Assembly: GCA_963971285.1 (NCBI GenBank) | Contig: OZ020255.1 | Coordinates: forward strand, 8,576,931-8,640,930 | Length of the DNA: 64,000 nt | Source of the DNA: Astropecten irregularis | Taxonomy: Eukaryota; Echinodermata; Asteroidea; Paxillosida; Astropectinidae | Direction of reading: 5' to 3' | In this document: positions 39,360-63,647 of the stretch, one piece after another | Layout of the letters: each line of letters opens with the position of its first letter | Position numbering within the stretch: the stretch's first letter is position 1 | Translations under genes and position numbers: made by a program | Notes under the pieces: model-generated | Databases searched by the model: none | Seen by the model: the letters and a program-made list of their open reading frames with translations, nothing else | Told to the model about the DNA's origin: nothing

Positions 39360-42300
39360 CTACTTCCTGAGCTTGTAGGCAATGACGGGCTTGTAGGGCG
39401 TGTGGATCATGGTGTTGTAGTTGATGGTGGGGAAGTAGCCGTCCACGAGGGACAGCTCGTACTTGCGCAGCAGGACCGACATGATGGTCTTGATCTGGAC
39501 GTAGGCGAAGTTCTCTCCGATGCAGCGGTGGCGGCCGGCCCCGAACGGCACGTAGGAGAACTTGTCGCTGTTGGACGCATTCTCATCAATGAACCTGCAG
39601 GAGATCGAACCAGGTACAATCAATTAAAGGTACAGTACAGGATTGGTTAACTAGTAAGCAGGAGGTCGTGGGTTCGAATCCCACCTGAGCCAGCATGTGA
39701 TTTCACATGCTCTCACAAGCACTGAGTATACAGTGCTCATCCAAGTTGGTGAAGGGCAAGCCTAATTTGCATATTATCTGTTTCCCGACCAAATCATTTA
39801 ATATTCATGATTTACTGCGGTTCCCGCCGCGATATTGGATTCGATTCACCCCGCTGACCCCAGCTAGCTCGGTGGCCTAGCGGTATGGCATCTGCACTAG
39901 TAAGCAGGAGGTCGTGGGTTCGAATCCCACCTGATGAGCCAGCATGTGATTTTTTTTCATGTGCTCTCACAAGCACTGAGTAAGCAGTGCTCATCCATGT
40001 TGGTGAAGGGCAAGCCTAATTTGCATATTATCTATTTCCCGACCAAATCATTTAATATTCAGGATTGGTAACAAACAGAAACAGAAATGTTCACAGATTT
40101 ACATTGCTGTATTAGACAAAGGGGATGTGGGTCCTGGAAACCATTACCAATCATGCATTATACCTTTAAGCTTTGAGCTAACTTCAATCTTTCATCCAGT
40201 TAAACCTCCCCAACACAACCAACTGAAAAAGCACATTGGTTTCTGGGGCACGGATCTGAAATGGGTTCGGGGTCAGAGTTGTTAGGTCGGATGACTGGAA
40301 GCCTGTGTTAAATTTTATTTGGTTGCGGCTTGAATCGACACAAGTCTCTTAAGGAGCAACTTGAAGCCGCTTCCCATACACCTGTGTGTAACTGCATTAA
40401 AGTCGTAGCCAGGTTATTCAGACATAGCCTAGATGATTGGTGTTGGGGCTTACCGGTCAGGGTTGTAGGTCAATGGTTCCGGCAGCCACTGGTCGTGAAG
40501 ACGTTGATTGACCGTGGGCGACACGCAGACTTGATGACCAGGAGGAATGACGTAATCTTTGAAAGTCTGCAGAAAGAAAACAATTCAGATGTTCTTTTAG
40601 CATTTGCAATAAAGAACACTATACAAGTAATAAACTTAAGCCTTTGAGAAAGATCCTGCTAGGATTGAAACATCAGACCCTCCTAACTAGCCTTTGAGAT
40701 AGATCCTGCTAGGATCAGAATGTCAAGCCTTCCTAACTAGCATCTGAGAAATATCCTGCTAGGATCGAAACATCAGACCCTCCTAACTAGCCTTTGAGAT
40801 AGATCCTGCTAGGATCGAAACGTCAGGCCCTCCTAACTTGCATTTGAGAAAGATCCTGCTAGGATTGAAACATCAGGCCCTCCTAACTAGCCCTTGAGAA
40901 AGATCCTGCTAGGATCGAAACATCAGGCCCTCCTAACTAGCCCTTGAGAAAGATCTTGCTAGGATTGAAATGTCAGGCCGCCCCTTAATACCTTCCAATA
41001 ACATTCCGAAAGAAAGTAACACAAATACAAAGTGTAATGATTCTAAGGTTTGCAAAGAATGACATTAATAAATTGACAAGACATAATAAATGAGGTAAGT
41101 TGAGTTGATCCTCACCATTGGTACTTTGGCCATTCGCATCATGGTCATGATGGGTGGGCGGAGCCTCAGAGACTCCTTCAGGCAACGGTCCAATAGCATC
41201 ATCTCCTTCAGCTATGAATAATTCATCATGACATGAATATTCAATATCCAGAGAAACATGATTCTAGTTGATACATTTTTAATTTCTTAAGAAATACAAT
41301 CATTGGATCAACAACTGTAAAATGTAGACGTTTCCTTTTAATGAAAAAGAAATACTTTTTCAGAACCTTAAAACAATTTCATGTGGTACAATTAAGAAGA
41401 CAAATCATTCCAAAGTTTTAATATAAATTATTATCTCAGTGGAACCAAAACTCTAGCAAGCGAAGATAAAAGCGATTTTGCAAGCCTAGATGAACAGAAT
41501 TCCAGCAATGATACTAAATAAAAGGTCCTCTCGTATGAACGAAGGAAAGGCTTCGTATGAATAATTGAGTAGTTATACCTGGTCATAGGTTAAAGGCTCG
41601 TCTATGTCATCTCCGCAAACTCTCAACTGCTCTTGGTAACAGCGTTCCTGTTTGAATACAATTTTAAACCTACATTTAATAACAGATTGTTTAAGAAGAG
41701 ATAGGGAAAGCTACAAACTCAACTAAATACAATCCAATCCATGACCTAGTCTACATCCCAGCCACCTCTCTCCACCCCTACCCTACCCCTCACCCAATCC
41801 TACCCATCTCTTTCCCTACTCCAGTTGAGTCCCTCCTACCACCACCCACCTGTAACTCCTTGTCCTTGGCCATGAAGAATGCCATCCATGAGCTGGTGGT
41901 AGACGATGTGTGCTGCCCTGCCACCTCTCTCCACCCCTACCCACCCCTAACCCATCTCTTTCCCTACTCCAGTTGAGTCCCTCCTACCACCACCCACCTG
42001 TAACTCCTTGTCCTTGGCAAGGAAGAATGCCATCCATGAGCTGGTGGTGGACGATGTGTGCTGTCCCGCCACCACTCTCCATCCCTACCCACCCCTAACC
42101 CACTCCTACCATACTCCTTGCACCTACCCCAGTTGAGTCCCTCCTACCACCACCCACCTGTAACTCCTTGTCCTTGGCCATGAAGAATGCCATCCATGAG
42201 CTGGTGGTAGACGATGTGTGCTGCCCTGCCACCTCTCTCCACCCCTACCCACCCCTAACCCATCTCTTTCCCTACTCCAGTTGAGTCCCTCCTACCACCA

Positions 42301-45300
42301 CCCACCTGTAACTCCTTGTCCTTGGCAAGGAAGAATGCCATCCATGAACTGGTGGTGGACGATGTGTGCTGTCCCGCCACCACTCTCCATCCCTACCCAC
42401 CCCTAACCCACTCCTACCATACTCCTTGCACCTACCCCAGTTGAGTCCCTCTTACCACCACCCACCTGTAACTCCTTGTCCAAGCCAGGAAGAATGCCAT
42501 CCATGAGCTGGTGGTGGACGATGTGTGCTGCCCCGCAACCTCTCTCCACCCCTACCCACCCCTAACCCACTCCTACCATACTCCTTGCACCTACCCCAGT
42601 TGAGTCCCTCTTACCACCACCCACCTGTAACTCCTTGTCCAAGCCAGGAAGAATGCCATCCATGAGCTGGTGGTGGACGATGTGTGCTGTCCCGCCACCA
42701 CTCTCCATCCCTACCCACCCCTAACCCACTCCTACCCCACTCCTTGCACCTACCCCAGTTGAGTCCCTCTTACCACCACCCACCTGTAATTCCTTGTCCT
42801 TAGCCAGGAAGAATGCCATCCATGAGCTGGTGGTGGACGATGTGTGCTGCCCTGCCACCTCTCTCCACCCCTACCCACCCCTAACCCATCTCTTTCCCTA
42901 CTCCAGTTGAGTCCCTCCTACCACCACCCACCTGTAACTCCTTGTCCTTGGCAAGGAAGAATGCCATCCATGAGCTGGTGGTGGACGATGTGTGCTGTCC
43001 CGCCACCACTCTCCATCCCTACCCACCCCTAACCCACTCCTACCCCACTCCTTGCACCTACCCCAGTTGAGTCCCTCTTACCACAACCCACCTGTAATTC
43101 CTTATCCTTAGCCAGGAAGAATGCCATCCATGAGCTGGTGGTGGACGATGTGTGCTGTCCCGCCAGCAATAGACCTATACACATCCCAGCTATTTCATCA
43201 TCATTCAACAGTTCCCCATTCCTGTAATCAAAAGCAAAGAAAGATACACGTGAATAATCTGCTGCTAACTGCTCATCATCAGACAAAGTAATGACCTGAA
43301 ATTTATACAAAGCTTGGAGTTAAGTTAATGGCTTAATGGAGTTAAGTTAATTGAGTTAATGGCTTTTTCGCCATTAATTAATGATTTATTGTTTGACCTA
43401 GAGTAATTTATTTATTTGTCCACATACATGTAATTGTTTATTTATTGCTTTTATTGTTTGTACATTTTGTTTAAATGTAATGTTATGCATGGCAGCATTT
43501 GGAGAGCCACTCGATTGTGATTTAGTTCGCATTTGGCAATCCTTCAGGGGTGTTACCATGCACTGTTCTTCTACTGTTTGGTTTTGTCATTTTGTTAATT
43601 TTCCTGTTTGTATTGTGCCTTCTGTTGCTTGCCCTGAGAAATAATAAATGAAATGAAATGAAATGAAAAAGGTGCCCTGACGCGTTTTGATCCTGGCAGG
43701 ATCTTCATCAAAGGCTAAAGGCTTAGCAAAAGCAAAGAACAAGACAATGATTCCAAGTATAACAGAAGCAAATTTGACACAGCCCAGAGTCAATCTTGAA
43801 ACCCTTGATACAAGCTTCCTGAAGTTTCGGGTTCGAATCCCAACTCAGTCTGATTTTCTTCATTCACGAACAAAATCTTCAAGGGTGTATTGAATAGGTC
43901 AGCATTATAGGTCAGCAGTATGCTACCTATGAATAGCTGAAACATTCTGTTTCAACACCTGACATCATTTGTGGCATAAGAGCCAAAACACTAAGATGAG
44001 TTTGATCAGCAAGAAGTATTCATCAAATATGAAGTCTTGGGACTTCAGTATCTGAATCTTATCACTTACTTGTAGGTCGTCGTGAGCAAGGTTTGAAGCA
44101 TATCATCATCAGGGTCTTCAGCAGCTCTCCTCTGTTGAATGGCCTGTCGAGAGGTCAAACAACCATATTAACCAAAGTTTCATGATAACTGGGAAGGATT
44201 CTCCATTCTTCAAAATATGAAAAACGTTCCTTTTTATTCTTTAATAACCCCACACCAACTGAAGTGAAAAGAGCCGGAGCAACCCAGTACAGTGTGATAT
44301 GTCCATCATAAGGAGGACGTTGGGATTCTAACAAAGGAAAATACTCGTATGGAGTCTAGGTGCAGATATTAGTGTAAATTGTGAATCTTGGGCCTTTTCC
44401 AAACCTTGACTTCGGCCCCCGGCTCCGTCTCCGTCATCCAAATGCTGAAAATATTATTACAATAATAGTATGTGGTCTTTCATTGAAGCTGAAGCTTTGT
44501 TTTCTGGTCCGAAACAAAGTATCTACATGTACTTCAAAGCCATAGCCAAAAGCTTCCATTTTGATATCTGTTCTGCCAGGTGGTTTTAAAACGGATGCAC
44601 AAAATAGAGCCAGAGTAGGAGCCGAATTCGGATCCGAGATTTGGAAAAGGCCGCTGATTTCTATAGACCGATCCGACGGCACGATTTACTGCCCGCCATA
44701 ACTGGAGTGTCCCTGCCTGCCTTTTGTCCGGCAACAAAAGAATTTATGCTCTGTTGCACTCTATAACTGCGGGATGTATTAGGGGACGTACACCCTGAAA
44801 TATAGAATGCGGAGGACGTAAATTCTTTCGTTGCCGGACATAATACAGGAGGGAACACTCCAGTAATGGCGGGTGTTTCCTACCTCCATGGTCGCGCTGT
44901 CGGATCGGTGTATTTGCTGTATTAAAAACAGTGCCCTCTTGTGTTTTTTATTTTATTTTGTGACAGCGCCCTCTTGAGTAAAAATACCTGATAGAATATT
45001 TTCTTGACCTCCAGGTGGGCGCGGTCTCGCTTACGGAAGCTTGGGAAGGGAATCCAGCTGGGGAAGAGCCAGGCAAGGTGACTGAAGCCACCGTCTAGAT
45101 CCATGTAAAGCTGAGCGACGTGCTCGTTCAACATGGACCTTATTTCCTTCCCTAGAAAAATAAAGAAATTTATCGAGACAAGTTAGCAAACCTAAAGAGC
45201 TACATGCTGTACATGAAGTAGTATATGTCCATGTACATAATTTATGTCTGTATGTAATCTGACAACTATTTTTGTAACAGCGCCATCTTGTGTTGTGTTT

Positions 45301-48300
45301 TCTCTTGCGTTGTGTTTTTTCCAAACAACTCACTGAAAGTACAGGTAATACAGGCAAAGGTTGATCAGCGACTATTTGTCAACCACTGGCTTGCTTGAGC
45401 CTGGTACCCATGGAATACTTTGTGTAGTGGTTACCAGACATAATCCTCCACCGATTGACAAATATTTTCGATCAAACTTGCCCATATGATATGATATGAC
45501 TACAATGAACTTTTCCTGTTGTTCTTCAAAAGAGTTCAAATCGCTTTCCCGAAAAATTACGATTTCATCAGCCACCATTTTGAGCAACATGGTCAATCTA
45601 TCTTTAACCATAGCTTTTTGGCATACATCTGGAAACTTTAGTGCATTAAACCTTGTGTGTAACGTAATGCCTCAACATCGTCACAGTTTTCTGAACTATA
45701 ACCATTTTACACTGATATAATGAGCTAATATTTCTTTTATGTTCCTCTGCTAATTGTGATGATGAGCAAAAAGATACGAAGAGGACAAAAGTTACCATGG
45801 AGACACCGGCTCGCAGTCAGAATGATCAGCTCAGACATAGCAACAAACATATCTGAAAGAAAAAAAATAAACAAACACCAAAAATCCATTAAAATACCCC
45901 AAAATCAAATCACAGGCAACTCTCATCATAATAGTGTACAGTCTTTACAATGTTGTTGTCCATTGTCAAGCCAAACAATGGCAATATTGTTCATGATTCA
46001 TGTTCAAATTTCCACGGCTTCTAAGGCGACTGACACTATAAAATTGAAGCTCACTTTAATCACCTTTTAACTGATCACTGTCTTGTCTAATTTCCATTAG
46101 AAACCAATCCAGTTGTCCTATTTCCACACCAGATGTGCATATTCTTGTGTACAAGTACACACTGACATGCAAATGAGCAAAGATAACAAAGGACACCGCC
46201 CAACACAGGGCTAAAATAACTCAGATGGTAGAACACTTGTACAGTATTCTGGGGGTTGCAGGTTTGAATCCTGCTCCAGTAAATTTCCTTTGTTCACCAG
46301 TTTTAATGACTTTGTCTTAACATCTTGCTCGGATGAAAACATGAAGAAGCCAGTAAGCATATGGAAATGCTTCATGATAAAATCATTTGGGTTTGCAATC
46401 AGCGATGAAGCTCTAATTCTCAAGTGAATCTACAGAAGTTTTTTCTATAAGCAGCAAAGGCAAGGGACCTGGGCCCAATTTCATAGAGCTGCTTAAGCAA
46501 GAAATTTGCTTAAGCACGAAAAGTCTTCCTTGATTAAACAGGATTACCCACCAAATGTTCATGTGATGTTTACTGCTTTTGGCTTGTATTCAGCCATTGT
46601 TTGTTGAGCATAACATTCACAAGGAGTTTTGGCCGGCATACTGATTTTATGTACTAAGGTTTTTGGTGCTTAAGCAAATGTTTTTGCTAAGCAGCTCTAT
46701 GAAATTGGCCCCAGGGGTTGATTTTCACGAAACCCTACGATCAATCGTAACTTGAGATACAAATGATAACCCGTCGTATACTTCAAATTCTTTACGGGGC
46801 TGCATTGTATCGTAAGTCCTACGATTGATATTAAGTTATGATGAGTTTGTTGAAATCGACCCCAGGGGTCAGTTCTTACTGTATGTGCCTGTGTCACCCT
46901 TCCATCGCGTCAGGTAACTGATCGTTTCTTCCTGCACCAGCTCGATGTGCTTGCGGAACTGGGCAACATTCAGGCCCATTTTCAATATCTTCTTCTGTTC
47001 CAGAAATTTCTGTATTAAAAAGGGCAAACAAATATATAAATTTGAATGAAAATTTGTAAAGAATCAAACAATTTTTATTTGGAACAACAAAACTGTGTAA
47101 TTACGGTATTTAGGAGGTCGCCGGTTCGAATCCCGCACCAGTCAAGTTTTCTTTGTTCATCTTTCAATGACTTCAGTCATTTTCCCTTGTGGTTATTTGA
47201 TGATTAAATAAGTTAAGAGAATTTGGTATTCAGCAAAAATATGTATCCCGGTACATAATGAATAGAGAGATCGGTACATAATGAATAGAGAGATCAGTAC
47301 ATTAGATAATTTATGATTCTTTATACTGTATATTCATACACAGTTACACACTGACTAAAAATACATGGAGATTGCGTAAATACCAGCAGAAATTTGTGGG
47401 GTGTTTTTTTTACAAGTCTGCTTGTCTGCATACATCATCAGGGGAAAAATGACACAGATTATAAAACTGATTTCATGATAAGTACCAGCAAATATTTCAG
47501 AGCAGAAACCATCACTTCCTCTCCTAGTCTACCACGCCAAATAAACTGTACAAGAACGAAAACAGGGTTTATAACCTGCTGAGCTCTAAATATTATTCTC
47601 TTCCAGGGAGGAAATTCCTTTTTGGGGTACAATTTCCATTCATTTCTGTTCTCCTGGGATTTGACATCAGTTTAATCATTATTTGAATACGGTACCCGAA
47701 TAAACTTAAAAAAAAACAACCGAAGAATCAATTTTTGAATTTATGTTCAGATATCTCTAAATATATTTTAAAATAATGAATTTGGTACTCAGTGATTACA
47801 ATTTGATCAGTCTTTATGATTTTAAAATACTAGGGAATTGATTTTGGTAGATTCCAGCTTGACATACTGTAGTTGAAGAGATCAGATCAATACTAAGAAT
47901 ACTTAATTACATCATAATAGGATCTCTTAAAAAAAAATTAATCGCCTTCAGATTACCTAATTTCTATGTATTTTCTCAATACAAGAAGCGGACAGAAATA
48001 TTCATCCAAATATAGATGTTTGATCTGATCTCATTTAGAACAAAAATATCTAATCTGTGTCAACAATGATCAAACAAAAATAGGATTCACAAAAGAAGTC
48101 TGTGTTGACTTCTAAAAGTCAAGTGGTTTCCACACAATGAACAATCTTGAAAACTCAGACACTTCAAACCAAAAATAAATGTTTTCCATTGTCACAATGA
48201 ATTGAATTGCAGACAAGTATAAAGTAACAATCAAACATCTTGTTGAAAAGTGAACAAAGAAAAATTGACTTGAGCGGGATTCGAACCAGCGACCTCCTAA

Positions 48301-51083
48301 ATACCGTACAGGCGCTATACCAAATGAGCCATCCAGCCCTACGTTGGTGGTGACCCCCGTTAGTCAATTATCTTTGTTCGTTTTCCAGTCAGAAGCCATG
48401 AAACCACGGACACACTGCCATACCCCAAGGATCATTTCACCGATACGCGCGGCAATGCTGCAATCTGAGAAACGGTACCACCGTACAGTATGGGGGATCA
48501 CTCAAAGAGGATACGGCTTTTTAATTAATACAATCATCAAATAACCACAAGGGAAACTGACTGAATTTAAAATATCTTGTATTAGAATGTTACTTTTATA
48601 AACTTGAAGAAATGCAGAAGGGTGAGCGGGGCTAATGTGGCAAGGAGGGAGGGTCCAGATGGCAGGTAAGGTAAAATTTACTACACTATCACGAGTGTGT
48701 TGCGTTTTATCACTTGTTTTGCAGACATTGCAACAAAATTTGCAAGGAGATACATAATGGTACTCACTGCATTTGGGATATCATAAGCCACGCCCTTCCC
48801 AAAGACGGGCGTGGTCAGTCGGCCGTAGACCTCTTCCGCATTCAGCTGGTCGTTTTTACTGTTGAACAGAACGGCACTGGCCTCCGGACCAATGAGATAA
48901 GTGAAGGTTTGTCCGACCATTGTAAAGCTGAACACCTCACCATACTAAGGGGAGAAATATTTATAAAATTACAAGAATATGAGACTATTTGAGAGGTACA
49001 ATGTATTGGTTAACAATAAGCACCCTGTTCCTATCAGAGAAGAGAATAGGGCACCGCCCTCGAGCTATTTATAGAATACACCCTTTATTCTCCACAGCTA
49101 TAGTTACCCGGATGTTCAAACAAATATCACAACGTTTACATGTAAGTTAATGGGGCAACGTGCGACTTGTTTGTCTGAACCTCTGAATGTGACGTCACGA
49201 GCGCGAAGCCCTATTACACTTCGCTATTTATTACCTAACTCACATGACCTGTTTGTTTGATACATGTATCCATTTTGACGTCAGCAAGCTTTAAGGTTTT
49301 TAGTGGATGGAAGCGCACACTGACGTTATATTTACGACTTGCTTCAAAAGTGGGTAAGATTGTGACTCGATTTTCTAAGTGGTGAAACAGAATTAAAAAT
49401 TCAGACAAGAATTCCACTGATGACCATCACTTCGGCACAACTATATGGAACCAGCAGAGGGCATTTTTAGATAAATGGCTGCCGCTGCATTTGAAGTATA
49501 TGTAAACAAAAACCTGTAAAACTCACTGTTCAGATATGCTACCCCAGTGTTACACAGCTGAGATTGAAGTTCAATTCAGAGTTGTAACCAAGTCAAATTT
49601 TCACAAGTCAAGTCAAGTCGCAAGTCAAATTTCCTCAAGTCAAGTCAAGTCTTGAGTCATTTCCTTCCAGGTCAAGTCAAGTCGCAAGTCACGAAAATTG
49701 GTGACACGAGTCGGACTCGAGTCCAAGTCACCGACTCGAGTCAACAACTCTGAAGATCATCATAATTTGTATTGGATCCAGTAACAGTATTCAAAGGTAG
49801 AATAGGGCCTAGACTTAACCCTCAAGTTTCTTCGTAATGGTCATCAGTGGAATTCTTTCCAAAATTCCAGAACGTAGAAAATTATAAGAACATTTGTTAC
49901 CTTCTTGTACGCTTTCTCTAGAAACTCAATGGGGCTTTCTCCAAATTCAACAGCTTTGCCTAGAAATGGAATTCCGGGGATATTTGGAGGTAAATTCCCA
50001 TCCTGAAAAATAAGACAAACAAACAAATGAAAATGTTAATAACAAAAAAATTTAAACTTAATTTTAAACTTAAGTTTTGATCAAAATAACCAAAATAGTT
50101 CTTCCAAAAGCACTCCACTTAATTTGACTTGTAAGTTGTACTTGTAGAAAAATGAAATTTTCCACCATGTACAAGGTTAAATTTGTACAAAAAATAAAGT
50201 TTTTAAATAGGCCGTACACATTTTATTTTGAAAATAATGAAAAATCTTCCTTTTTTTTCTCTATTTTCAAATGTCACACTCGAGTATCACTGCAAGGTGT
50301 ATTTGTCTTTTCAGTGACTGTCAACCACTGAAAATAGCGTAATTATACTAGGAAACTTCAGAACTCCACGAGTGCCATTTCACTCACCGGTATCCAGATA
50401 ACCACATTATTTATATCACCAAGTCGACTTATTAAGCCCTAAAACTATAGAAAGGTCGAATTATCAAGATAATTTATTCGTACAAGATGAATAGTGAAAC
50501 TTAGTCGACATATCCTGGTAATTTATCTCGCCAAGACGACTTTCTGAATTGAAAGAAGGAAGTTGACTTGTCCTGATAGAAATAGCTTGTAAAGATGAAG
50601 TTAAGTTAAAAAAACTGAGGTTATTTATCAGAATAGGGCCTAAGACGATTTTTTAACGTTAGACGACTTGGCCAGATAAATTATCAGGATAAGTAAACTT
50701 TTCGTTTTCCCTAAAACTAAAAGTCACCTTGCTGAGATAATTATTGAGACAAGACGATTTTTACCACTCCAAAAGCTAGTCGACTTGGCGAGATAAATTA
50801 TATGATTATCTGGATATGAAGTGGAATGGCACTCGTAGAGCTCCGTAGGAAACAGTTATACGCCCATCCGTGATAAGTTTTATACACAGCACAATGGCAG
50901 AACAGCAGACGAATTTGTCTGATGACTTACTATTTTGCTAGTGGATTTCCCCAACATCTTCCTGAAAACGGCCCCAAGAACGAGCACAAATGCCGTCGTT
51001 ATCAGCACCAGAGTCGTGGTACTGTAGTCCTGCCATCTTCCAATGGCTCCGTCCATGAGAGAACTTCCTGTTCCCGTCGCCAT
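39360..51083 (-). CDS. CYP51A1: Lanosterol 14-alpha-demethylase (CYP51), complete, 12 exons
   Basis: Exons in transcript order are 51083-50931, 50002-49901, 48944-48768, 47009-46880, 45852-45796, 45151-44988, 44143-44070, 43221-43092, 41647-41579, 41211-41116, 40566-40454 and 39594-39360; all join in frame to 499 residues (human about 503-509). Residues 22-42 are the ER membrane anchor. Diagnostic P450 features: I-helix AGQHTS at 306-311, the ExxR motif E365-S-L-R368, and the heme loop [10 protein letters not shown] at 439-448 with Cys446 as the axial ligand. CYP51-specific segments such as [13 protein letters not shown] and [12 protein letters not shown] are intact. The enzyme removes the 14-alpha methyl group of lanosterol in three oxidations, needing cytochrome P450 reductase. 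It diverges from LSS, which makes its substrate. Part of the I-helix exon is amplified in intron 8 (41851-43093). A GTG 21 nt upstream is in frame but the ATG at 51083 is the proper start. Confidence 0.97.
39645..40062 (+). repeat. tRNA-derived SINE B, two copies in tandem
   Basis: Copies at about 39645-39805 and 39866-40060 share a tRNA-like 5' part (GCTCGGTGGCCTAGCGGTAT, anticodon-arm-like CTGC...GCAG and B box GGGTTCGAATCCCACC, acceptor GAGC) and a body ending in TGGTGAAGGGCAAGCCTAATTTGCATATTATCT. The pair interrupts another inverted-ended element whose halves lie at 39627 and 40064-40170. A third copy is at 59098-59270. In the last CYP51 intron. Confidence 0.8.
40639..40980 (+). repeat. 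Seven-unit 50-bp tandem array, hammerhead-like
   Basis: Unit of 50 bp with a stem GATCC-TGCTA-GGATC preceded by TTTGAGAAA and followed by GAAAC(A/G)TCAGGCCCTCCTAA. The order of elements resembles a hammerhead ribozyme strand (CTGATGA, helix II hairpin, GAAA), but the first core block is altered. Single relatives lie at 25712-25760, 28590-28640, 43680-43720, 59313-59400 and 63908-63950. It sits in CYP51 intron 10, antisense to the gene. Confidence 0.8.
41851..43093 (-). repeat. Tandem array of CYP51 exon 8 end plus intron start
   Basis: Nine units, the last being the real exon end at 43092, start at about 41851, 41999, 42159, 42307, 42467, 42626, 42785, 42933 and 43093, so spacing alternates around 148 and 160 bp. 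Each carries about 70 bp matching the exon's last 24 codons, which include [10 protein letters not shown] and AKDKELQ, followed by the GTGGG donor, plus intron sequence. Some copies (near 42470 and 42626) have a 1-nt loss that shifts the frame. The units lack the exon's 5' half and its acceptor, so they are not full exons. Confidence 0.93.
43680..43720 (-). repeat. Single hammerhead-like repeat
   Basis: On the minus strand this reads TTTGATGAAGATCC, TGCC, AGGATCAAAACG: a 5-bp stem between a near-perfect UGAUGA core block and an AAAAC in place of GAAAC. It is the copy closest to the expected first core block among the GATCC-stem family. Confidence 0.6.
44390..44662. mobile_element. MITE with GGCCTTTTCCAAA ends
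   Basis: Opens GGGCCTTTTCCAAACC and closes TTTGGAAAAGGCC. Relatives lie at about 5312-5530, 56893-57128 and 57755-57960; the copy at 56893 carries an internal GGCTCC hexamer run. All of them are in introns. Confidence 0.7.
44668..44915. mobile_element. Palindromic MITE with CGATCCGACGG ends, copy 2
   Basis: Same family as 39050-39305: GATCCGACGGCACG at one end, GCTGTCGGATCGG at the other, and the TTGCCGGACA inverted pair inside. It lies in CYP51 intron 6. Confidence 0.75.
46195..46310 (+). repeat. tRNA-derived SINE A, plus-strand copy
   Basis: Contains CTCAGATGGTAGAACAC, GGTTTGAATCCTGCTCCAGT and AATTTCCTTTGTTCAC. Another 3' fragment with GGTTCGAATCCC lies at 47110-47200. Both are in CYP51 introns. 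Confidence 0.75.
46473..46870. mobile_element. Two adjacent foldback MITEs
   Basis: The first (46473-46724) opens GGCCCAATTTCATAGAGCTG and ends with the complement; it matches the element at 8817. The second (about 46710-46870) has TTGATTTTCACGAAACCC against TTGTTGAAATCGACCCC, matching elements at 25459 and 34008. They abut CYP51 exon 4. Confidence 0.7.
48240..48560 (-). repeat. tRNA-derived SINE A, near-complete
   Basis: A long minus-strand copy runs from GTGAACAAAGAAAAATTGAC through the tRNA-like head (about 48264-48338) to ATAACCACAAGGGAAACTGAC. It is the best full-length guide to the family body in this window. In CYP51 intron 3. Confidence 0.8.
49580..49745. repeat. CAAGT-rich simple repeat
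   Basis: Imperfect reiteration of CAAGTCAAGTC with variants such as CGCAAGTCA and ACTCGAGTC, in CYP51 intron 2. No coding potential. Confidence 0.8.
50365..50852. mobile_element. Inverted-ended element in CYP51 intron 1
   Basis: AACTCCACGAGTGCCATTTC at the left is mirrored by GGAATGGCACTCGTAGAGCTC at the right, with further complementary words inside (ATCCAGATAA/TTATCTGGAT). About 490 bp, no open frame. Confidence 0.75.
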
Positions 51084-52341: not shown

Positions 52342-55300
52342 ATGAGTGGGAGACGGAACCGAGGCGGCCCGCACAAGACCGAGCCAGTCACTGATCTGAC
52401 AAGATGGCGGCTGTCCAACGTGGACGGCCGACAGACCTGGCGCTACATCGAAGAAGGCGAGCCAGTAGACAGGCCACAGAATGTGGTTGAGAAGTTCAGT
52501 TTGGGATTGGACATTGTGAGTAATTGTTCCACCTCAGAAACTAATTTTTTTCCCGTTTCAAGGTAATATCATAGTACTTTGGTTTTTATCAAAGGAATGC
52601 AGATTCACGGGCAAAAATGTCAAGGACGGTACAGTTACAGTCATCTGTGAAATTTTCTGTCCCATATACGGTGCTCACTTCTCTTTTTGAGAAAACAGTG
52701 AAAAACAGCCACAGTGTTTCTTAAGTCTTTCCTCTTTTATGGTTGATCTTTAAAATATCAAAAATAATTTCGGTCACTGGTTTGACTCTTTTCTGGATAA
52801 ATACAGCATGCCAGGCAGAAATATTTTAATGGTATGTTTCTACCATCACCATCTTTACACCCTGTAAGTTATAGGTAAATCTGTGAAGATTTCTGTTTTG
52901 GCTTAATTGCTACCAAAGTATGATAATGATACTACCTTTAATTAAAATAAAATGTTGTAAAATGCTGTGAATGGTTCTACAGGTTTCTACAGACAGAAGG
53001 TTTGAGCATTGGCAGTGTCTAGTAGTATAGCTAGTCCCAATATTGAGAAAATGTACATATATTATTGTAAATTATTATCATATGTGAACTTCACTTATTT
53101 ATGACTGCCGAATACTAACACAGTACCAGCAGTATTGCATGATATTGCAATGGCTGTGTTCAAAATAGAAGTGTTCTTATTTGTAACAATATAACAGGTA
53201 TGCATCCTTAAATAGAAAAAGCCTAAAAATATATGAGCATCACTGACAATGTAAACTTATACAGACACTTTGTGGACTTAATCAAGCAATCCTTATCATT
53301 GTGCACAAACAACTGATATGATTCATAGCTGGCTTCAACTTAAAAGAGCAAATAAAAGAGCAAGGACATTTCAATTTAACATTTGATTGGTGCAAGCTTG
53401 ATACAATCCTAGACAATATAACTTGAACCCTTATCTTATAGGCAGATAGGTGACATAACCACAGCAAAATGAGGCATAAGTCCAGAAAGATGATTTTGAG
53501 GTAATAAAAGCCAATTATATAACTGTTCCACAATGGAAGTTAATAGGATGTCAGTTTTGATGTTTATTTCAATTTGTGTTGACAAAATTCTGTAGAGCAA
53601 AGAGGCTCCGCCCTTTCCCAAGCCTACCACGCCCCAAGAAGCTGCCAACAATGGAGTAGTCTTCTACTCCAGGCTGCAAACAGAGGACGGTCACTGGAGC
53701 GGAGACTATGGAGGCCCTCTCTTCCTCATGCCAGGTGACCTTTGGATGACCTTTGACCCACAAGGGTCAAGTCTTTTCCCATTGTTAAAACGCAGAAATA
53801 GGGGAGGCTGGAAATATAGAAATAAGTTAGGCCTAAAAAAAAAATTGTTGTTTTGTCCTCAAGTTGAAAAATAAAATGTTTGGGTCAGTCGGTCGATTGT
53901 TGTTTTTTTTGTTTTTTTTTTGGCAGACTTTCAAACATTTAAGAATAAATACATGTACAGGATGTATGGTCACCAGGGCTTATAAATCAACGGTCTTTGG
54001 TCGTTTTGAGAAGACACGCTTTTTTACTGCGAAATCTTACATTTTCTGTCAAAAATTGTGAGTTTTTATACTTTAGGACTCAGAGAAAAGAAAAAAAGAA
54101 AAAAAAAACGACCCAAAGTTTTGGCATTTTACGGTCGGTCGCTGAGGGCAACACAACCATTTTTTTATAGGCCTTATGGGGAAACATGTGTACATTCTGA
54201 ATTGCCTTGTTTTCAAATTCAGGGTCTACCGTCTCATATCTGCAATTTGGTTGACATAGCAACACCATGGCAACCACTCCATTTTCTAAATGACTGGTCA
54301 TTGATCTGTCATTATTTGTTACCTTGATGACATCAAATTTTGCTCATAAATATGCAAATCTATATTCATAAAAACAAACAAAACATGATTGCATTGTAAA
54401 ACAGCTGTGAAAATCAGTACAATTACGAACACTATAGGAAAAATTAAAAGTCAGCTGTTACAGTGTTCTTAGTACATATTCATTTGAAGCTTCTTTTTTG
54501 TGTCAGGTTTGCTGATAGTCTGTTACATCACCAAGACCGAGCTACCAGATGCCTTCAAGAAAGAAATGGTCCGGTATCTGCGCTCCGTTCAGTGCCAAGA
54601 AGGGGGATGGGGACTGTAAGTATTACCCCAATTCATATGTCTTTGTCATTCTGTGATATAAGATTTTCAGTATTTTCGTGTTAGAGCCTTGAAACTTAAA
54701 AAAAGTTTTTTTACACTAGAATTCGCGGCAGATGTAAGATTAAAAATTCTCCCAAAATGTGAAATTAACAATTCCCCCAAATGTGCACTAAAGTTCCCCC
54801 AAAATGTGAAATTAAAATTCTCCCAAAATGTGCCACAAAACTGAAAATAAGATTTGTTGAATATATATTTTTGATGGAAAGTGATATAGGTGTTAATTGT
54901 GAACCAATTTTGAAGTTTTGCTGATTTCCAAAAATATGAGAGAGAAAAATGGGCATGATATTCAGGTATAAAGCATTGCTAACATCTGTATGAATTTTCT
55001 ACCAGCACTTCTTGTTTGTGTAGGTGCTGTCATGCCGTAGTGGGAATTTAATCACAGGAAGTGATGTTCTCATTTTACTACCTGCATATCTTTTTGTATT
55101 AATATGCAGGTAGTTTGGATAATGATCTAATTTGCTTAATATATTCAGCATGCAAATGTCAGGAGTGACATCATATTATTGTCATAATATGCTAATTTAA
55201 AATTAGCATAATGACAAGTACTTGATGAGATAATATGCAAATTGATGAGATGTTTAGGCTGTACCTGAGGTGCAATTTATGGCCACGTGAATACCTTTTT

Positions 55301-58300
55301 CAGATATCAACTATGGACATTTCTGTGAAATAGAACCAATTAGGTCTATCTACTAGCTTCCTTATAACCGATCCCAAACAAAACTAGACATTTAAGTGTT
55401 CGTGGATGAACACAGAGCTGTTCCAACTTTATTTAATTAGCTTGAAGTTTCGTTCCTAAAAGTTCAATCAAACTGTCATCACAGAAATTACTATAAAGAA
55501 GACGATTAGAAAAGATTAGGAATAAACAAACTTACTACACTTAAGCTATGGAAGGAAGCCAATAAAGTAAAATAATGAAAAGCAGAACGAAAATTAAACC
55601 TGTTCTGACGTCGGAAATGTCGGAACAGCTAATGATCCCATTAAAAAACAATTAAAACTTTAATTCTTTGTCTAGTCCGTCTAAAATGATAACTTGATTC
55701 ACAATTCTAACTTTTTCGATGTTTACAGACACATTGAGGGGCCAGCCACTGTCTTCGGTTGTGCAACCAACTATGTAGCCATGCGACTACTGGGTGTTCC
55801 CCCTGACGACCGCGATCTCATCAAATGCAGGAAGCACCTTCACTCCCTAGGTACGCATACCAGCAACTTTAACACGCATCAGAATCACAGACATATCTGC
55901 ATATTCATTTTGTCAACAAATTCTTAAAAATAACACAAGAAAATTAGTTGTTTTTCCTTCTTTAGTTGCTAGACAAACTTGGGACTTGAGAATTAAAATG
56001 CCCTCAAAGTTGTGTATAATTTTCACTTGTTAACCGTAACAAATCTCATACAACCATGACAACTATAATAAACAAAATTGTTACAAAAAATAAACTACTT
56101 GAAAATTGAACAAACAAAAACTTGGAATTCTTATCTTGCAAATTCAAGAACATTGCATGGGAAAGATGAAAAAAAAGTTCAGGATTTTTAAGATGAAATT
56201 CCAAAGTTTGTCGATCCATTTTTTATTTAGTCTTTAAAGGTAGTACTTTGGTTTTTATCAAAGAAATACAGATTCATGGGCAAAAATATCAAGGAAGATA
56301 CAGTAACAGTCATCTGTGAAAATTTCAGTCACATACGGTGCCCACTTTTTTAGAAAACAGTGAAAAACAGCCAAAGTATTTCTTAAGTCTTTTCTCTTTT
56401 ATTTTTGATCTTTTGAAAGATCAAACAGTTTTTTAATTGTTGTTTTACTAATTTCTGGATAAATAATCCATTTCAGGCAGAAACATTTTAACTGTATGTT
56501 AATTTCTACCACCACCATCTTCATACCCTGTAAGTTATACGTAAATCTTTGAACATTTCTGTTTTGGTTTCTTGCCAAAGTAGGATACTACCTTTAAACA
56601 ATGTTTTATTATGTCTTACACAAATGTTGACTGATTGGCTTGTCGGTCTGTTTTCATCTGTTTGTTTATCTGTGTATTATATGAAGGAGGAGCTGTGGGT
56701 ATACCATCATGGGGCAAATTCTGGCTGTCTGTGCTCAATGTCTACAGCTGGAATGGAATGCACACACTCTTCCCAGAATTATGGTGAGTCTGGGAGATAG
56801 ACATGCTTTCCCTTGTATGATTCATAAACTCCATTTTGTGATTGGCACCAGACTAATCTAGCGAGGCTAGTTGCTATGCAGAGAGATTGCCCTGGGGCCT
56901 TTCTCAAAACTCGGCTCCAGCTCCGGCTCCGGCTCCGGCTCCGGCTCCATTTCTAAAATTACGGGTATCAAAATAGAGACTTATGGCTGCGGTTCTGAAG
57001 TGGATTCTCTGGTTTGAATAGGAAAACAGAGCTTCAATGAAAAACCACAGCCTATATTTTCAGCATATGGATCACAGAGATGAAGACGGATCCTGAGCCG
57101 GACTGGAGCTGAGCTTTGAGAATGGCCCCTTGAATCAAAACACACCCTTAGCAACAGCGTTATAGTCAGGGGAATTTGAATATTGAATACACCTAGTAGC
57201 CACAATGCAAATTGAGTCAGAGTACTAGACATTGTTTAAATTAAGGCCAAGTTTGAGCAGGGTTTATTTGTCCACAACTGTTTGATTGTGCCTGGTACTC
57301 GGGCATTGTTTCGTGTAGAAGGTCACCAGGCAAAATCCACCATTGGTTGACAAATGAGCTCTGATTAAACTTCTTGTGAAACTTTGTCAGTTGATAACAT
57401 ACAGTTCATGTCAACATCAATGATTGGTTATACTAAGGCTAATAGATATCATGAACTGTACTGTACCTATTATAGGCTGTTTCCAACGTGGATCCCGGCC
57501 CATCCCTCAACGATCTGGTGCCATTGCAGGCAAGTCTATCTTCCAATGAGTTACTGCTATGGAGTCAAGTTCCAAGCCCAAGAAGATGATCTGATCAGGG
57601 AACTGCGAAAGGTATTCAAATTCAAGATGTAAAACAAATTGTGGAATTTTCATGTTTTGTGAAATGAAATATCCGTAGAAGGTGATAGGTTTTCACATGC
57701 CTTTTCCTCATTTTCTGACGAATCTATCTCAAACTGGAAAAGTCCATTATTAGGGAGGTTTACGAAACAGAGTCTGAGGCTCCGGCTCCATTTCGTGAAT
57801 CCATTCTAAAATAACGGGTATCAAAAAAGAGGCTTTTGGTTGCGATTTGGAAGTAGATTCTCTGCTTTGAAAAGGAAAACAGAGCTTCAGCTTCAATGAA
57901 AATCACAGCCTATATTTTCAGAATATAGATGACGGAGCCAGAGCCTGAGCCTGAGCCTCTCTTCCGTATCGTATAATATTAGAAGTCTTGAGCCCTGACT
58001 TCTTTAAATTTGTGTGAGTCAATATTTTGCATTATACGAATGTCTTTCTTTTCTATGTAGGAGTTGTATGTACAAGATTACCAGACCATTGACTGGCCTG
58101 CTCAGAGAGATAACATTGCTAAGGTGGACCTGTACACGCCTCACAGCTGGCTGTATAATTTTGCATTTGGTAAATATAACTCCTTTCTTCTCTTTTGGAG
58201 AGGCAGTATCCCAATGACACATTCTTTGGACTCAGACCAAGTTGGGGCTTCAAGCACCTAGATAAAGTTACAGTGCCTGGGCTCTACAGCCCTGTGTCCT

Positions 58301-61300
58301 TCAAAATACTACACTATGCAATATCCCTATGGCACATTATTTAGACTTGGACCAAGTTGGGCCATCAAGCCCCATATAAAGTTACAGTGCCTGGGCTCTA
58401 CAGTCCTGTGTCTTAAAAAGCCACACTGTGCAGTATCCCTATGACACTTTTGGTGGACTTAGACCAAGTTGGGTCATCAAGCCCCATATAAAGTTACAGT
58501 CCCTGGGCTCTACAGTCCTGTGTCCCTCAGAATCAGTAATACCATAGCATGGATTTCTGCAGATTTGGGAAGATAGAATTATCTAAAATGAGAATTATCT
58601 TCATGATCAGAAAGAATAAATTTTAAGCTTTAATATAGTGTATGACACGTTGTAGGTCTGTTGCTTGTTGCATTGTGAAGCTACGCACGCTCCAATGAAA
58701 AGACTTAAGATGGTTTAACTATTTCAATGTAGTCTCTTCATGTATATCGCCCATAAAGTGTAATGCTGTGAGATATGTGACTCATTTTGACATCTGTACG
58801 CCATTTTTGACTTGCAGGGTTTTTGGACATTTACGAGGCCTACCATTCTGCATCTGCTCGACAGTGGGCCTTGGACGAATGTCTAGAACACATTAGGGCA
58901 GATGACCAGTTTACCAAATGTATTAGCATCGGTCCTGTGAGTATGGTACCCTGTCTCCTACTCCTTACCTTCAACCCTCTCCACCTATGCATACCTAACG
59001 TGGCAAGGTGCCAGTCTGTCATTGTCAAAAACAGAAGCTGTAAAGAGTTGGAAACTTCTCATCAACCAAAATAATGACCTGATTATATAACTCCGCTGAC
59101 CCAAGCTAGCTCGGTGGCCTAGCAGTGTGGCATCTGCGCTAGCAAGCAGGTGGTCGTGGGTTTGAATCCCACCTGAGCCATTGCATGATTTTTTCATGTG
59201 CACTCAGCAAGCATTGAGTATGCAGTGCTCATCTACGTCAGTGAAGGGCAAGCTTAATTTGCACACTGAAATATATAAAATACTTATAGATGTAGAGTTA
59301 TAGGGCCAGATGTTTTGATCCTAGCAGGATCTTTCTCAGAGGCTAAATAGTTGACATCTTGATCATTGGATCCAATGGATTGAAATATCAGGCCCTCCTA
59401 ACTGTAAGCTTGTCAAAAAAAAAAAAACCTATAAGTTATCAACGCATTCGGCTTATTTAAGTTTTTATTTAGTGTATGCTATAACAAAAAGCTCAGAGTA
59501 CCAAATGACACATCCCCCCTTAAAAAATGTTCTCTTTAATTTACATAGGAAGAATTTCACAAAAAAATGTTCTAAGTTATCAACACGTTCAGCTGAATAC
59601 ACTTTAAGTTTTTATTTGCGATAATGCCTATGCTCTTTTGTCTATAAAGTTTGACTCAGCTAGAGTTTCTAACAAGGGAGTAAAGAAGGGTTTTATTGAA
59701 TAGCGTACAAGTTTTAAATAGAAATGTCGGCATAAGTTTATAGCATCCATATTTTAATGGAGGTCCAATGTTTAGTGTTTCTTCTTATATGTTTTGAATC
59801 ATCTAGTATTCAAATTACACAATATTTGTAACAGCGTGCTAATAAATTCTTGGGCTTTATTGTGAATTTTGGATAGCTTATAGGTTGTTTTGTATTTGGG
59901 ACAGATTTCTAAAGTTATCAACATGTTGGTAAGATGGATGACTGACGGGCCGGAGTCAGAGGTTTTCAAGCAACATGTGGAACGCATTCCGGACTATTTA
60001 TGGTATGGTCTGTTTGTCTGTCGTCTGTTGTGCTGTCTGTGTATTTGGCAGATCGGTCTATATGGTTGTCTTTCTATAGAGGAATATCTTCAACTTGTAT
60101 GCTTTAATCAAAGTGGATGGTGTTGAAAATTATACATAAGAGAGTGATCCAAATCCGTCCCTCACGTGAGGGACGGACATCAATGCATTAATTGCTTCGC
60201 CAAAGATTTCTTGAATACTTATTGTCAGTAAAAAACATGTGAATGCTTAGCCCTGACACCAGTGCAAGTTGGCCACATGCCATTTTGAATTTGTCTATTT
60301 TGAGGGTTTTTATTAAAAGAAGATTTTAGGGCGTGAGGGATGGACATCAATAAAAATGACCAGATTCCCCTGAGTCTACAAAAAAAAATTTCCTTAAAAC
60401 TTTGAAACATTTTGTTCAAATTTCAGGATCGGTCTGGACGGCATGAAAATGCAGGTAAATTAATCGTAATTCTCAGAATCAAAAAATCCTATTCTATCAT
60501 TGGTGCCCAAGCCACCAATCAGAAGCATGCTGTCTCCGGATTGGACGGGGCATACACCAATCAAGGACCAGGGGCCGATTTCACTAACGCTTTTCGACCA
60601 TCGTAAAGCCCAAATCCATCGCTCAACAGACAATCGATCGCTACTTTATGTAGCAATTTTCCGTTTAGCGATGGATTTGGGCTTTACGATGATCGCAAAG
60701 CGTTAGTGAAATTGGCCCCAGGATCCAACACAGCCAAAACTAATTCAAGCACGGATATAAATTGAAACCGTGCAAGTGTCTTCATCATCAGCTTGATAAA
60801 GGCTAGCAGTCTGCAGCCGAAACGTCACTACCTTTCAGCCTACATCGTGAGCCATCGAACACATTTTCCACGATAAAAAACTTTCCTAGTATCATATCTT
60901 ATTTGTAGATTAAGAAATGAAATGTGGATCGGTTTGCGGAAACACCATGTAAGAATCGTTCGTACTTTCGCACTTCTATTTCATTCGCACTTCTTGTAAG
61001 ATCTCAAGGTTTCGACTAGCCTGCTCTAGTCATCATCAGGAAACCACCAGACTACATGACTAGAGCAGGCTAGTCGAAACATCGAGACCTTATGAGAAGT
61101 GCGAATGAAATAGAAGTGCGAAAGTAGGAACGATTCTTACATGGTGTTTCCACAAACCGATCCACATACCAATATTGTCACCATGCAAAGCCTCAAATCT
61201 TTCAAGAAATGAAATGTTATGAATGAACGCTCTCTTGACAAATACAAACATGATGGAATGATGAACTTTACCTTTCGATCTAAATTTTGCTGGGTTACCG

Positions 61301-63647
61301 GTTGTGTGCAGGGTACCAACGGCTCTCAGCTCTGGGACACGGCCTTTGCGGCCCAGGCTTTGCTGGAAGCTGGGGCGGCAAAGAATGCAGCGGTGAACGA
61401 GTGTTTGCAGAGGACGCATGACTTCCTGGAGCTGACGCAAATCCCCGCCAATCCACCCAACTACCAGAAATACTACAGACAAATGAACAAGGTATTATTA
61501 AGTAAGGGTTTGCCCTTCACAGAATCTTCAATTATCAGCACAGTATACTGAGTGGCCTCAGTGCCCATGAGATAAGTATCATATGGTTTAAATGGGGTTC
61601 GAACCCATCACTGCGTAGAGTTGATGCAAGTCCCCCTCCTAACTACCAGAAAATAAAGGCAAATGAACAAGGTATTACCGTACTCAGGTAAGGGTTCTGC
61701 CTGCACCAACATATATCAGCACTGTACTAACAGGTAGCCTTAAAGTGCTCAATGAACACAAGCATCATACTGGCTCGAGTGGGGTTCGAACCCATGACTT
61801 CCTGCTTACTATTCCAGATGTCTTACCTGATTACACCACCAAGCTAGCCAGTGGATTACCGGTAAGCACAGTCATTCCTTATGCGAATTGCAAAGCCAAG
61901 AGAAGTATGAAGTCATATATAAAGTGGAAATGTGCTCAACTTGTTGGGAACATTCGTTTCAAACATTCATTTGTGACATGAATTTCATTTCGCTTGAAGC
62001 TCTCGCAAGAAGCATGAACCAGGCCTTAATTTAATTCCAGTGTCTGTTGCTAAGGTTCCAGACAATGAATTTGAGGTGAATATGATATAATAATTACATG
62101 TATTAAAGGTACAATACATGATTGGTAATTTATAGAACAGCACTTACACTTTGTCTGATCCAGCATGTACATGAAATAATAAACCTGTGAAAATACAAGC
62201 TCAATCAGACATCTGAGTCGCGAGAAAATAGCGAAAACCCGACTCAATTTTTCTTATAAAACATAAAGAATGGTTTTGATCTTGGCCCGAGATCAAAACT
62301 GTTTTCAGTCTTTGTTTGACTAATTTTGGATAAATACAGCATTTCAGGAGGAAATATTTTAACAGTATGTTTCTACCAGCACCATCTTCATACCCCGAAA
62401 GTTATAGGTAAATCTGTGAACATTCTGTTTGGTTTTGTTACCAATCCTGCAGCCGATTTCACGAAAACATTGCAAAAACATGATCTTACTTTGCCCGATT
62501 CCAGATGACTGTTTGTTCATCGCCTCTTGACTCATTTGAGGGAGAATATCCATGGCTCAATATGAGTTCTCATATTTTTTATTGCCAGGGTGGCTATCCA
62601 TTCAGTACCAGGGACTGTGGGTGGATCGTAGCAGACTGCACTGCAGAGGGGCTCAAGGCAGCCCTGATGTTAGAATCACAGTGTCCGGACATCAGAAACC
62701 ACATCACCAAGGAGAGGCATTGTGAAGCTGTAGACGTGGTAAATGAAAATAAAATTTAAAATGACCTCCGATTATACATAAAATCATCAGTTATGGTTAT
62801 ACTCACGGATTAGCAAGGAAAAACAAATTCTGGCAAAAATGATATTCGGATCAAATTTCTTTACTTCTTTACACATTTAACTTGTTTTCTACATCAACCT
62901 AAAAAAAGTTGTATTGTTTAACGTGAACCCCTAAGCTTTGTCATTGCTGCGTTGATATACCATTAAACTCAATATTTGTTGAGATTCCGGGCTAGCTGAC
63001 AGTAAATGGGTTATAATTATGGCTTCTGACTGGCACCCTGAGCAAAAATAGTTGATTATAGGGAGGCTCCATCATAGGGTTGGATAGCACATATGTAGAA
63101 AGCTGGTATGGCAGTTAATGGGTTATATGGATTCCGACTGGCACCCCGAGCAAAGATTGTTGACTTACGGAAGGCCCCATCATAGGGCTGGATTGCTCAG
63201 ATGATAAGAGTGCTGGTATGGCAGTTAGTAAAAGGTTATAATGGCTTCTGACTGGCACAACGAACATGGTTATTGACTACAAGGAGGCCCCATCATAGGG
63301 CTGGATTGCTCAGATGGTAGAGAGTTTTAGAGGAAGTTTTGGGCTCAAGTCCTGGTCCAGTCAACTTTCTCCTCAACCAAGAACAAAATCAAACTGAAGG
63401 TTTCTTACCTTGTTCCTTTTCGACAAGATTCCCTACAAACTTTTTCCAGATCTTGTCTCCCTTGCGAATTGTCAAGTTGTTTACAACCTTCTAAGATGTT
63501 TCACGCTCTTCTGCCAATGGAAACATTGTTTTTTTTTTCTTTGCTTCTAGATTTTGAACATGCGCAACAGCGACGGCGGCTTCGCAACCTATGAAACTAT
63601 GAGAGGGGGAATGATTCTTGAGAAGCTAAACCCGTCAGAAGTATTCG
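52342..63647 (+). CDS. LSS: Lanosterol synthase (oxidosqualene cyclase), 13 exons, 3' end outside window
   Basis: Exons are 52342-52515, 53596-53734, 54507-54615, 55729-55850, 56687-56783, 57476-57611, 58061-58169, 58818-58936, 59905-60002, 60427-60454, 61312-61491, 62589-62738 and 63551-63647, all in frame, 519 codons plus one base; human LSS has about 730 residues, so the last quarter or more lies to the right. The N-terminal RGGPHKTEP...DLTRWRL block, [35 protein letters not shown] and the catalytic DCTAE (Asp453, human Asp455) are intact. His230, Thr379 and Phe442, which correspond to human His232, Thr381 and Phe444, are those expected of a lanosterol-forming enzyme. It cyclises 2,3-oxidosqualene at the ER membrane. 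Exon 10 is only 28 nt. The neighbouring divergent gene encodes CYP51, the next enzyme. Confidence 0.97.
52557..52942. mobile_element. Family T MITE in LSS intron 1
   Basis: Opens CAAGGTAATATCATAGTACTTTGG and ends ATGATACTACCTTTAA; the interior matches the 4919 copy throughout. A further copy at 56235-56597 lies in LSS intron 4. Confidence 0.8.
56235..56597. mobile_element. Family T MITE in LSS intron 4
   Basis: Opens TTTAAAGGTAGTACTTTGG and ends GGATACTACCTTTAA, again with TTAA at the borders. It lies about 90 bp upstream of LSS exon 5. Confidence 0.8.
58190..58535. repeat. Three ~110-120-bp tandem units in LSS intron 7
   Basis: Units share CAAGTTGGG(C/T)CATCAAGC, ATAAAGTTACAGTGCCTGGG and CTCTACAGTCCTGTGTC. 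The first copy begins about 20 bp after the exon 7 donor. Confidence 0.8.
59098..59270 (+). repeat. tRNA-derived SINE B, copy 3
   Basis: Contains AGCTCGGTGGCCTAGCAGTG, GGGTTTGAATCCCACCTGAGCC and the body CAGTGAAGGGCAAGCTTAATTTGCA. In LSS intron 8. A related minus-strand tRNA-like segment lies at 61772-61850. Confidence 0.75.
60569..60722. mobile_element. Foldback MITE with GGGGCCGATTTCACTAACGC ends
   Basis: About 150 bp. Both halves pair over most of their length (CGTAAAGCCCAAATCCATCGCT against AGCGATGGATTTGGGCTTTACG). Related, more diverged copies are at about 29440-29560 and 37786-37912. In LSS intron 10. Confidence 0.8.
60922..61170. mobile_element. Two hammerhead-like fragments facing each other
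   Basis: A minus-strand copy (60922-61040) and a plus-strand copy (61045-61170) of the same ~115-bp block form an inverted repeat around a ~20-bp centre. The minus copy keeps CTGATGATGACTAG, a GACTAG/CTAGTC stem and GAAAC. The plus copy has lost the first core block. In LSS intron 10, just upstream of exon 11. Confidence 0.7.
62103..62450. mobile_element. TTAAAGGTACAATAC-type MITE (relative of family T)
   Basis: Opens TTAAAGGTACAATACATGATTGG and ends GTTACCAATCCTGCAG-like; the right half shares the TCTACCAGCACCATCTTCATA segment with family T while the left half has its own GTCGCGAGAAAATAGCGAAAACC block. Partial relatives are at 10545-10715 and 22560-22755. In LSS intron 11. Confidence 0.65.
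63005..63365 (+). repeat. Tandem SINE-like units in LSS intron 12
   Basis: Three repeats of about 115 bp with ATGGCTTCTGACTGGCACC, GGAGGCCCCATCATAGGGCTGG and ATTGCTCAGATGGTAGAG; the last continues to a B-box-like GGGCTCAAGTCCTGG and CAGTCAACTT. These look like 5' parts of a tRNA-derived SINE multiplied in place. Confidence 0.7.

Follow-up and report, generated by a model that had tools for sequence, protein, structure and literature searches.

Why do the genes for two consecutive sterol enzymes, lanosterol synthase (LSS) and sterol 14-alpha-demethylase (CYP51), stand head to head in the sea star Astropecten irregularis: is the arrangement genuine, how old is it, and does the DNA between the two start codons control both genes? 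The locus had been described in an initial annotation of the window, the whole 64,000-nucleotide stretch analysed (C19:8576931-8640930), which belongs to a 475.7-Mb assembly of 168 contigs. Several comparisons below draw on PMC9236903, which we take to be Thimmappa et al. 2022.

Spliced protein-to-DNA alignment was performed with an aligner written for the purpose, which allows only GT-AG and GC-AG introns. Human LSS and CYP51 sequences served as references, and the products were confirmed against PDB chains. CYP51 was placed on the minus strand and LSS on the plus strand, head to head, with exactly 1,258 bases between their ATG codons, confirming the divergent pair of successive steps that the initial annotation had reported. 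Two alignment products were discarded: a spurious 8-base first exon of LSS (52229-52236) and three residues ahead of the CYP51 start codon. The coding features are as follows.

39360-51083, minus strand: CYP51 (sterol 14-alpha-demethylase) coding region, 12 coding exons, 499 amino acids, by spliced alignment
50931-51083, 49901-50002, 48768-48944, 46880-47009, 45796-45852, 44988-45151, minus strand: CYP51 exons 1-6
44070-44143, 43092-43221, 41579-41647, 41116-41211, 40454-40566, 39360-39594, minus strand: CYP51 exons 7-12
41756-43165, minus strand: array of tandem repeats with periods of 148, 160 and 308, in intron 8 of CYP51 and the end of its exon 8
52342-64000, plus strand: in-window part of the LSS (lanosterol synthase) coding region, by spliced alignment; 726 amino acids for the whole protein
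52342-52515, 53596-53734, 54507-54615, 55729-55850, 56687-56783, 57476-57611, 58061-58169, plus strand: LSS exons 1-7
58818-58936, 59905-60002, 60427-60454, 61312-61491, 62589-62738, 63551-63647, plus strand: LSS exons 8-13

The CYP51 frame is open from its ATG at 51083 to a stop ending at 39360, and all 11 introns are GT-AG. The protein gave a single end-to-end match to 8yqo, a lanosterol 14-alpha-demethylase (E 3.6e-218), and all eight PDB sequences reaching E ≤ 1e-100 carry the name sterol or lanosterol 14-alpha-demethylase, each with E ≤ 1.1e-215. A Pfam p450 domain was found, two motifs of 11 and 13 residues are retained, the latter being the haem-binding cysteine motif, and identity to the human CYP51 reference is 322 of 496 aligned residues. 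The full-length best fit to CYP51, together with the haem-binding cysteine motif, places the protein in the CYP51 class.

LSS has 18 coding exons, 13 in the window and five beyond it, with the stop codon at 65933-65935; the right end at 63647 in the initial annotation is the end of coding exon 13. Its frame is open and its introns are GT-AG throughout (17/17). The model (725 residues used) aligned to human LSS 1w6k with 1151 bits over residues 5-722, both Pfam domains SQHop_cyclase_N and SQHop_cyclase_C were found, and identity to the human LSS reference is 467 of 724 aligned residues. H232, F444, D455 and Y503 (human numbering) are retained and DCTAE is present; a full-length oxidosqualene cyclase (OSC) with DCTAE and the lanosterol-type Phe444 is a lanosterol synthase by class. 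With both frames open and the LSS catalytic residues and CYP51 motifs retained, the earlier statement that both enzymes are intact also holds.

An exon-by-exon search of the 475.7-Mb assembly (both of two candidates scored) returned one SQHop_cyclase_C match, an exon of this LSS. A protein search with CYP51, in which 86 of 170 candidates were scored, returned 73 matches; every match with more than 39% identity falls at C19:8.616-8.628 Mb. The LSS-CYP51 divergent pair is thus real, intact and apparently single-copy. For one given pair of genes, the probability of adjacency by chance is about 2 divided by the gene number, or roughly 1e-4 at an assumed 25,000 genes.

Other P450 sequences were observed on contig C10, where 12 matches with open frames of 289-413 codons occupy 52 kb (C10:8481153-8532696); three of the 12 contain internal stops, and the cluster reads as mostly intron-poor tandem genes.

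The arrangement is known from one assembly, and might in principle be an artefact that joins unlinked sequences. This is barely credible here: contig C19 is 20 Mb long, the 264 kb of window and flanks contain no N, the exons are in order, and the arrangement fits both a prediction from the human loci and a published echinoderm figure legend (PMC9236903).

The tandem array within CYP51 is a separate feature of the gene. Its units carry the 3' end of exon 8 and the splice donor (the last codons, followed by GT), and six array copies of residues ~304-330 lie beyond the true exon, with a 21-residue peptide intact in four of them; within the gene, pieces of the exon end have multiplied along with their donors. 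Six Rfam tRNA matches were also recorded (39629-39692, 39869-39934, 48266-48338, 59108-59180, 7435-7507 and 4288-4360), four of them inside introns of CYP51 and LSS. ARAGORN accepts only three of the six, one without a proper anticodon, and the set looks like tRNA-derived SINEs.

Mitochondrial-type sequences were noted on three contigs. C168 is the 16,335-base mitochondrial genome, in which COX1 has AAA at asparagine sites (DDQIYNVIV, DRNVNTTFFDP) that are presumably conserved as asparagine in animals; this fits NCBI code 9. ND1 and ND2 are encoded on the opposite strand to COX1, and tRNAs A+, L-, N- and Q+ precede COX1, an order that we take to be the asteroid arrangement, with ophiuroids presumably carrying an inversion as well. 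Code and gene layout together indicate an echinoderm, and most probably a sea star. A COX1 fragment with 7 TGA at C25:9951047-9952018 is a probable nuclear insertion of mitochondrial DNA. A COX1-type gene at C131:32162-33484 stays open for 552 codons when read in the standard code, free of stops; C131 is probably a bacterial contig in the assembly.

We then considered which product the pair would make. Residue 444 is described as a switch in PMC9236903, with F in lanosterol, Q in lanostadienol and L in parkeol synthases; since LSS retains Phe444, its predicted product is lanosterol, the CYP51 substrate. The initial annotation had pointed to marine invertebrates with rerouted triterpene and sterol synthesis, but this animal does not look rerouted: its Phe444 is the lanosterol-type residue of PMC9236903, and rerouting to parkeol or lanostadienol is disfavoured by that residue and by the presence of one LSS match only. 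The same evidence bears on the idea that LSS and CYP51 act in saponin defence, as a specialised triterpene cluster like that of sea cucumbers. The host belongs to the echinoderms, among which sea stars produce steroidal saponins according to PMC9236903; with Phe444 retained rather than Leu or Gln, a single cyclase match and an intact CYP51, such a cluster is nevertheless very unlikely.

Linkage of further pathway steps was searched across the assembly. The squalene epoxidase domain, representing the preceding step, was found on C22 only, and ERG24-family reductases, which include the following step, on C8 and C11 only, in each case unlinked to LSS-CYP51. The proposal of a metabolic cluster therefore survives only in its narrow form: two successive steps are adjacent, but squalene epoxidase and C14 sterol reductase lie elsewhere. 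A larger sterol cluster is not supported as far as the two flanking steps searched go, both being on other contigs.

Whether the pair shares control turns on the interval between the start codons, for which a motif scan covering 1,257 of the 1,258 bases gave the following features.

51084-52341, no strand: candidate divergent promoter between the start codons, 1,258 bases
51232-51244, plus strand: DR1 nuclear-receptor-type site GGGTCAAAGGTCA, a match to the consensus only
51251-51259, plus strand: NF-Y-type box AGCCAATCA; as many occur in 17% of 300 randomised sequences, which is not beyond chance
51294-51299, minus strand: GC box GGGCGG, from the motif scan
51481-51486, plus strand: GC box GGGCGG, from the motif scan
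51517-51529, plus strand: DR1-like site GGGTCAAAGGTCG, a consensus match

CpG observed/expected is 0.84 over the whole interval versus 0.60 for the window. In 300-base sliding windows it ranges from 0.78 to 1.38 between 51084 and 51983, and from 0.23 to 0.46 between 51834 and the LSS start. This profile may represent promoter DNA free of methylation and, after it, a leader intron of LSS; the CpG fall thus points to a possible 5' leader intron, in which case transcription of LSS would begin well upstream of the ATG. With a relaxed DR1 pattern, two of the six matches in 264 kb fall in the interval (Poisson 1.8e-4 from the other four, for a motif picked after sight of the sequence); with a stricter pattern, one of seven does so. 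Two GC boxes, or as many, occur in 0.3% of 300 randomised sequences, and plain CCAAT boxes number 2, below the 3.4 expected. SREBP is a known sterol regulator; the consensus scan found no SRE, the SREBP site, in the interval, and no CRE or NRF1 consensus site. A sigma-70 promoter scan is not meaningful for animal DNA and was set aside.

Under the mechanism that we propose, the 1.26-kb interval would set the output of LSS and CYP51 together, with CYP51 draining the lanosterol that LSS makes, and the two DR1 sites and two GC boxes would be candidate inputs common to both genes. That the interval serves as a shared promoter in this animal is plausible, with a chance slightly below even. The usual limit for a bidirectional pair is ~1 kb between transcription starts. 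The same two genes could also be inert neighbours, members of an ancestral block that have separate promoters and no shared control, a reading that differs on the promoter only and to which we give appreciable weight, if somewhat below an even chance. The 1,258 bases suffice for two separate promoters, the interval holds no SRE, and its NF-Y box is within chance. Against this, LSS and CYP51 catalyse consecutive steps and are placed divergently, and the possible leader intron would narrow the gap between transcription starts.

The age of the pair was approached through its neighbours. A gene with a PACT domain, of the AKAP9/PCNT type, was predicted near the window from human gene order ahead of the search; the window with all flanks makes up 5.8e-4 of the genome. 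Across 475.7 Mb the PACT_coil_coil profile gave one strong match, the only other match having E 3.5.

C19:8647575-8647811 (window coordinates 70645-70881), minus strand: PACT_coil_coil match (PF10495), profile search, E 6.4e-23

A Pfam check of the PF10495 domain gave E 2.6e-20; a PDB search with the PACT piece returned one match only, unrelated, at E 0.27. The near edge of the match lies 4.7 kb past the LSS stop, so LSS and the PACT gene stand tail to tail. Coiled-coil-like stretches, two of them 2.6 and 4.0 kb long, continue from the match on the same strand to 151,128, and the match and these stretches would together make up one gene. Farther on, an open stretch at 172,003-172,248 is lysine-rich and begins MQLANFQKKK, and may resemble the N-terminus of AKAP9 and PCNT. 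With its PACT domain at the C-terminus of a very long protein of coiled-coil type, this gene is identified as AKAP9/PCNT-type, and it is the first gene recognised beyond LSS. From the LSS stop to the PACT match, coding-like stretches are listed only at 69,211-70,087, where several overlapping frames score on both strands; the best-scoring ones on the minus strand may be the last exons of the PACT gene, which would then end ~3.3 kb from the LSS stop, although this assignment is not settled. We know of no sterol role for a centrosomal scaffold gene of this type. A PACT neighbour of that kind shows that adjacency can persist without function, which favours the view of LSS and CYP51 as inert neighbours.

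On the other side of the pair, the recognised gene nearest the CYP51 3' end contains a SAP-domain exon (27921-28046, plus strand). On the minus strand, a DNA/RNA non-specific endonuclease domain lies at 3580-4754, of which 4554-4754 matches Pfam PF01223, and a second set of stretches at 19990-24408 on the plus strand looks similar to it by eye. An integrin beta gene lies left of the window, at window coordinates -27857 to -17304.

The initial annotation's placement of human LSS on chromosome 21 and CYP51A1 on chromosome 7 agrees with published gene lists. On chromosome 7 the listed order is MTERF(1), AKAP9, CYP51A1, (LRRD1), KRIT1, ANKIB1 (PMC2702084, PMC6834745). The chromosome 21 list gives LSS at 46,188,141, MCM3AP, YBEY, C21orf58 and PCNT at 46,324,141, placing LSS and PCNT about 136 kb apart by the table of PMC8854775. 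In each human locus, CYP51A1-AKAP9 at 7q21 and LSS-PCNT at 21q22.3, one enzyme thus lies beside or near a PACT-domain gene, as it does here; in human, however, the enzymes are on different chromosomes with other intervening genes, whereas here all three genes are adjacent. The inner gene order also differs from human, as presumably does the orientation.

Because the PACT neighbour ties this one locus to both human loci, it is suggested that adjacency of the two enzymes is the ancestral state and their separation in human a derived one. In the proposed history, an old neighbourhood of CYP51 (minus), LSS (plus) and an AKAP9/PCNT-type gene (minus) would have been kept since at least the echinoderm-vertebrate common ancestor. 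In vertebrates the block would have been doubled, one copy keeping CYP51 and its PACT gene and the other keeping LSS and the other PACT gene; the simplest route would be whole-genome duplication followed by reciprocal loss. Linkage of CYP51, LSS and one PACT gene in that ancestor is highly probable, and an ancestral block that was split in vertebrates is probable on the gene orders compared. Reciprocal loss after genome duplication is the cause of the vertebrate separation toward which we lean. AKAP9 and PCNT would themselves be products of the vertebrate genome duplications; the openly licensed PMC literature yielded no paper on such an origin.

Alternatively, LSS and CYP51 could have been joined in the echinoderm stem, the nearness of PACT genes in human being coincidence or the residue of other linkage. 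In keeping with this, and counting against the ancestral block, three other gene families of the human regions match other contigs: SAC3_GANP (MCM3AP family) was found on C23, C14 and C11, DMAP_binding (DIP2 family) on C16 and PEX-1N (PEX1) on C27, all absent from C19. We regard an echinoderm origin as unlikely, since the genome's only strong PACT match lies in the next gene recognised after LSS, and the two human loci each join one enzyme to a PACT-gene paralogue. The positions of the three families indicate that three genes, not a chromosome region, were retained, and broad retention of human 21q22.3 or 7q21 content is absent for the families tested. Human ITGB2 lies in 21q22.3 with LSS and PCNT, and the integrin beta gene left of the window might be a further linkage remnant, although integrin beta is a multi-member family.

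Should the block be ancestral, the dispersal of the human genes for two cholesterol steps is the derived state, and the sea cucumber loss of CYP51 and doubling of the cyclase happened around one old locus. The locus would also offer a testable case in which control of consecutive enzymes by shared DNA gave way, after genome duplication, to a common factor. An extended version is offered tentatively, as a possibility well short of even: the block, served by a shared sterol-responsive divergent promoter with nuclear-receptor DR1 sites, was already present in the ancestor of deuterostomes and perhaps of bilaterians, the vertebrate genome duplications broke it through reciprocal loss, vertebrates had to put control in trans (SREBP) in place of coupling in cis of the two successive cholesterol steps, and AKAP9-CYP51A1 and PCNT-LSS are its fossils.

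Among known systems, the closest is the echinoderm locus itself. The legend of Extended Data Fig. 10b describes the genomic neighbourhood of OSC genes with CYP51 genes in orange, and as here CYP51 is drawn near the OSC; from this legend, the echinoderm OSC-CYP51 pairing is very likely already in print (PMC9236903). The sea cucumber route differs from the locus described here, CYP51 having been lost and two divergent OSC genes standing in tandem in the account given there (PMC9236903). The string 'AKAP' has no occurrence in the main text of that paper, and its passages on OSC and CYP51 make no mention of the human loci or of a shared promoter. Searched by title and the start of the abstract, the openly licensed PMC literature gave no paper on an AKAP9/PCNT neighbour, on the human loci as relics or on a shared LSS-CYP51 promoter; as far as the literature so searched shows, the third neighbour, an AKAP9/PCNT-type gene beside LSS, is new. 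In some vertebrates, LSS and a sterol 3-beta-glucosyltransferase are bundled with 4 to 19 intervening genes, according to PMC12833800, so that LSS lies near another sterol-acting enzyme, as here, but with a different partner; 'CYP51' does not occur in that paper.

Among ten bacterial OSC loci, several of whose stretches end at contig ends, none had a CYP51 match at E 1e-3. In plants, the avenacin cluster of oat links Sad1, an oxidosqualene cyclase, with Sad2, a CYP51H, and so joins a cyclase to a CYP51-family gene as here; avenacin genes, however, form a many-gene defence cluster, whereas the sea star locus is a pair of primary sterol enzymes. In animals, PPAT-PAICS of purine synthesis is a divergent gene pair of one pathway in which, as in LSS-CYP51, the genes of two enzymes face away from each other across a short interval. 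The PPAT-PAICS interval is much shorter and has been experimentally tested, whereas the LSS-CYP51 interval is a candidate divergent promoter.
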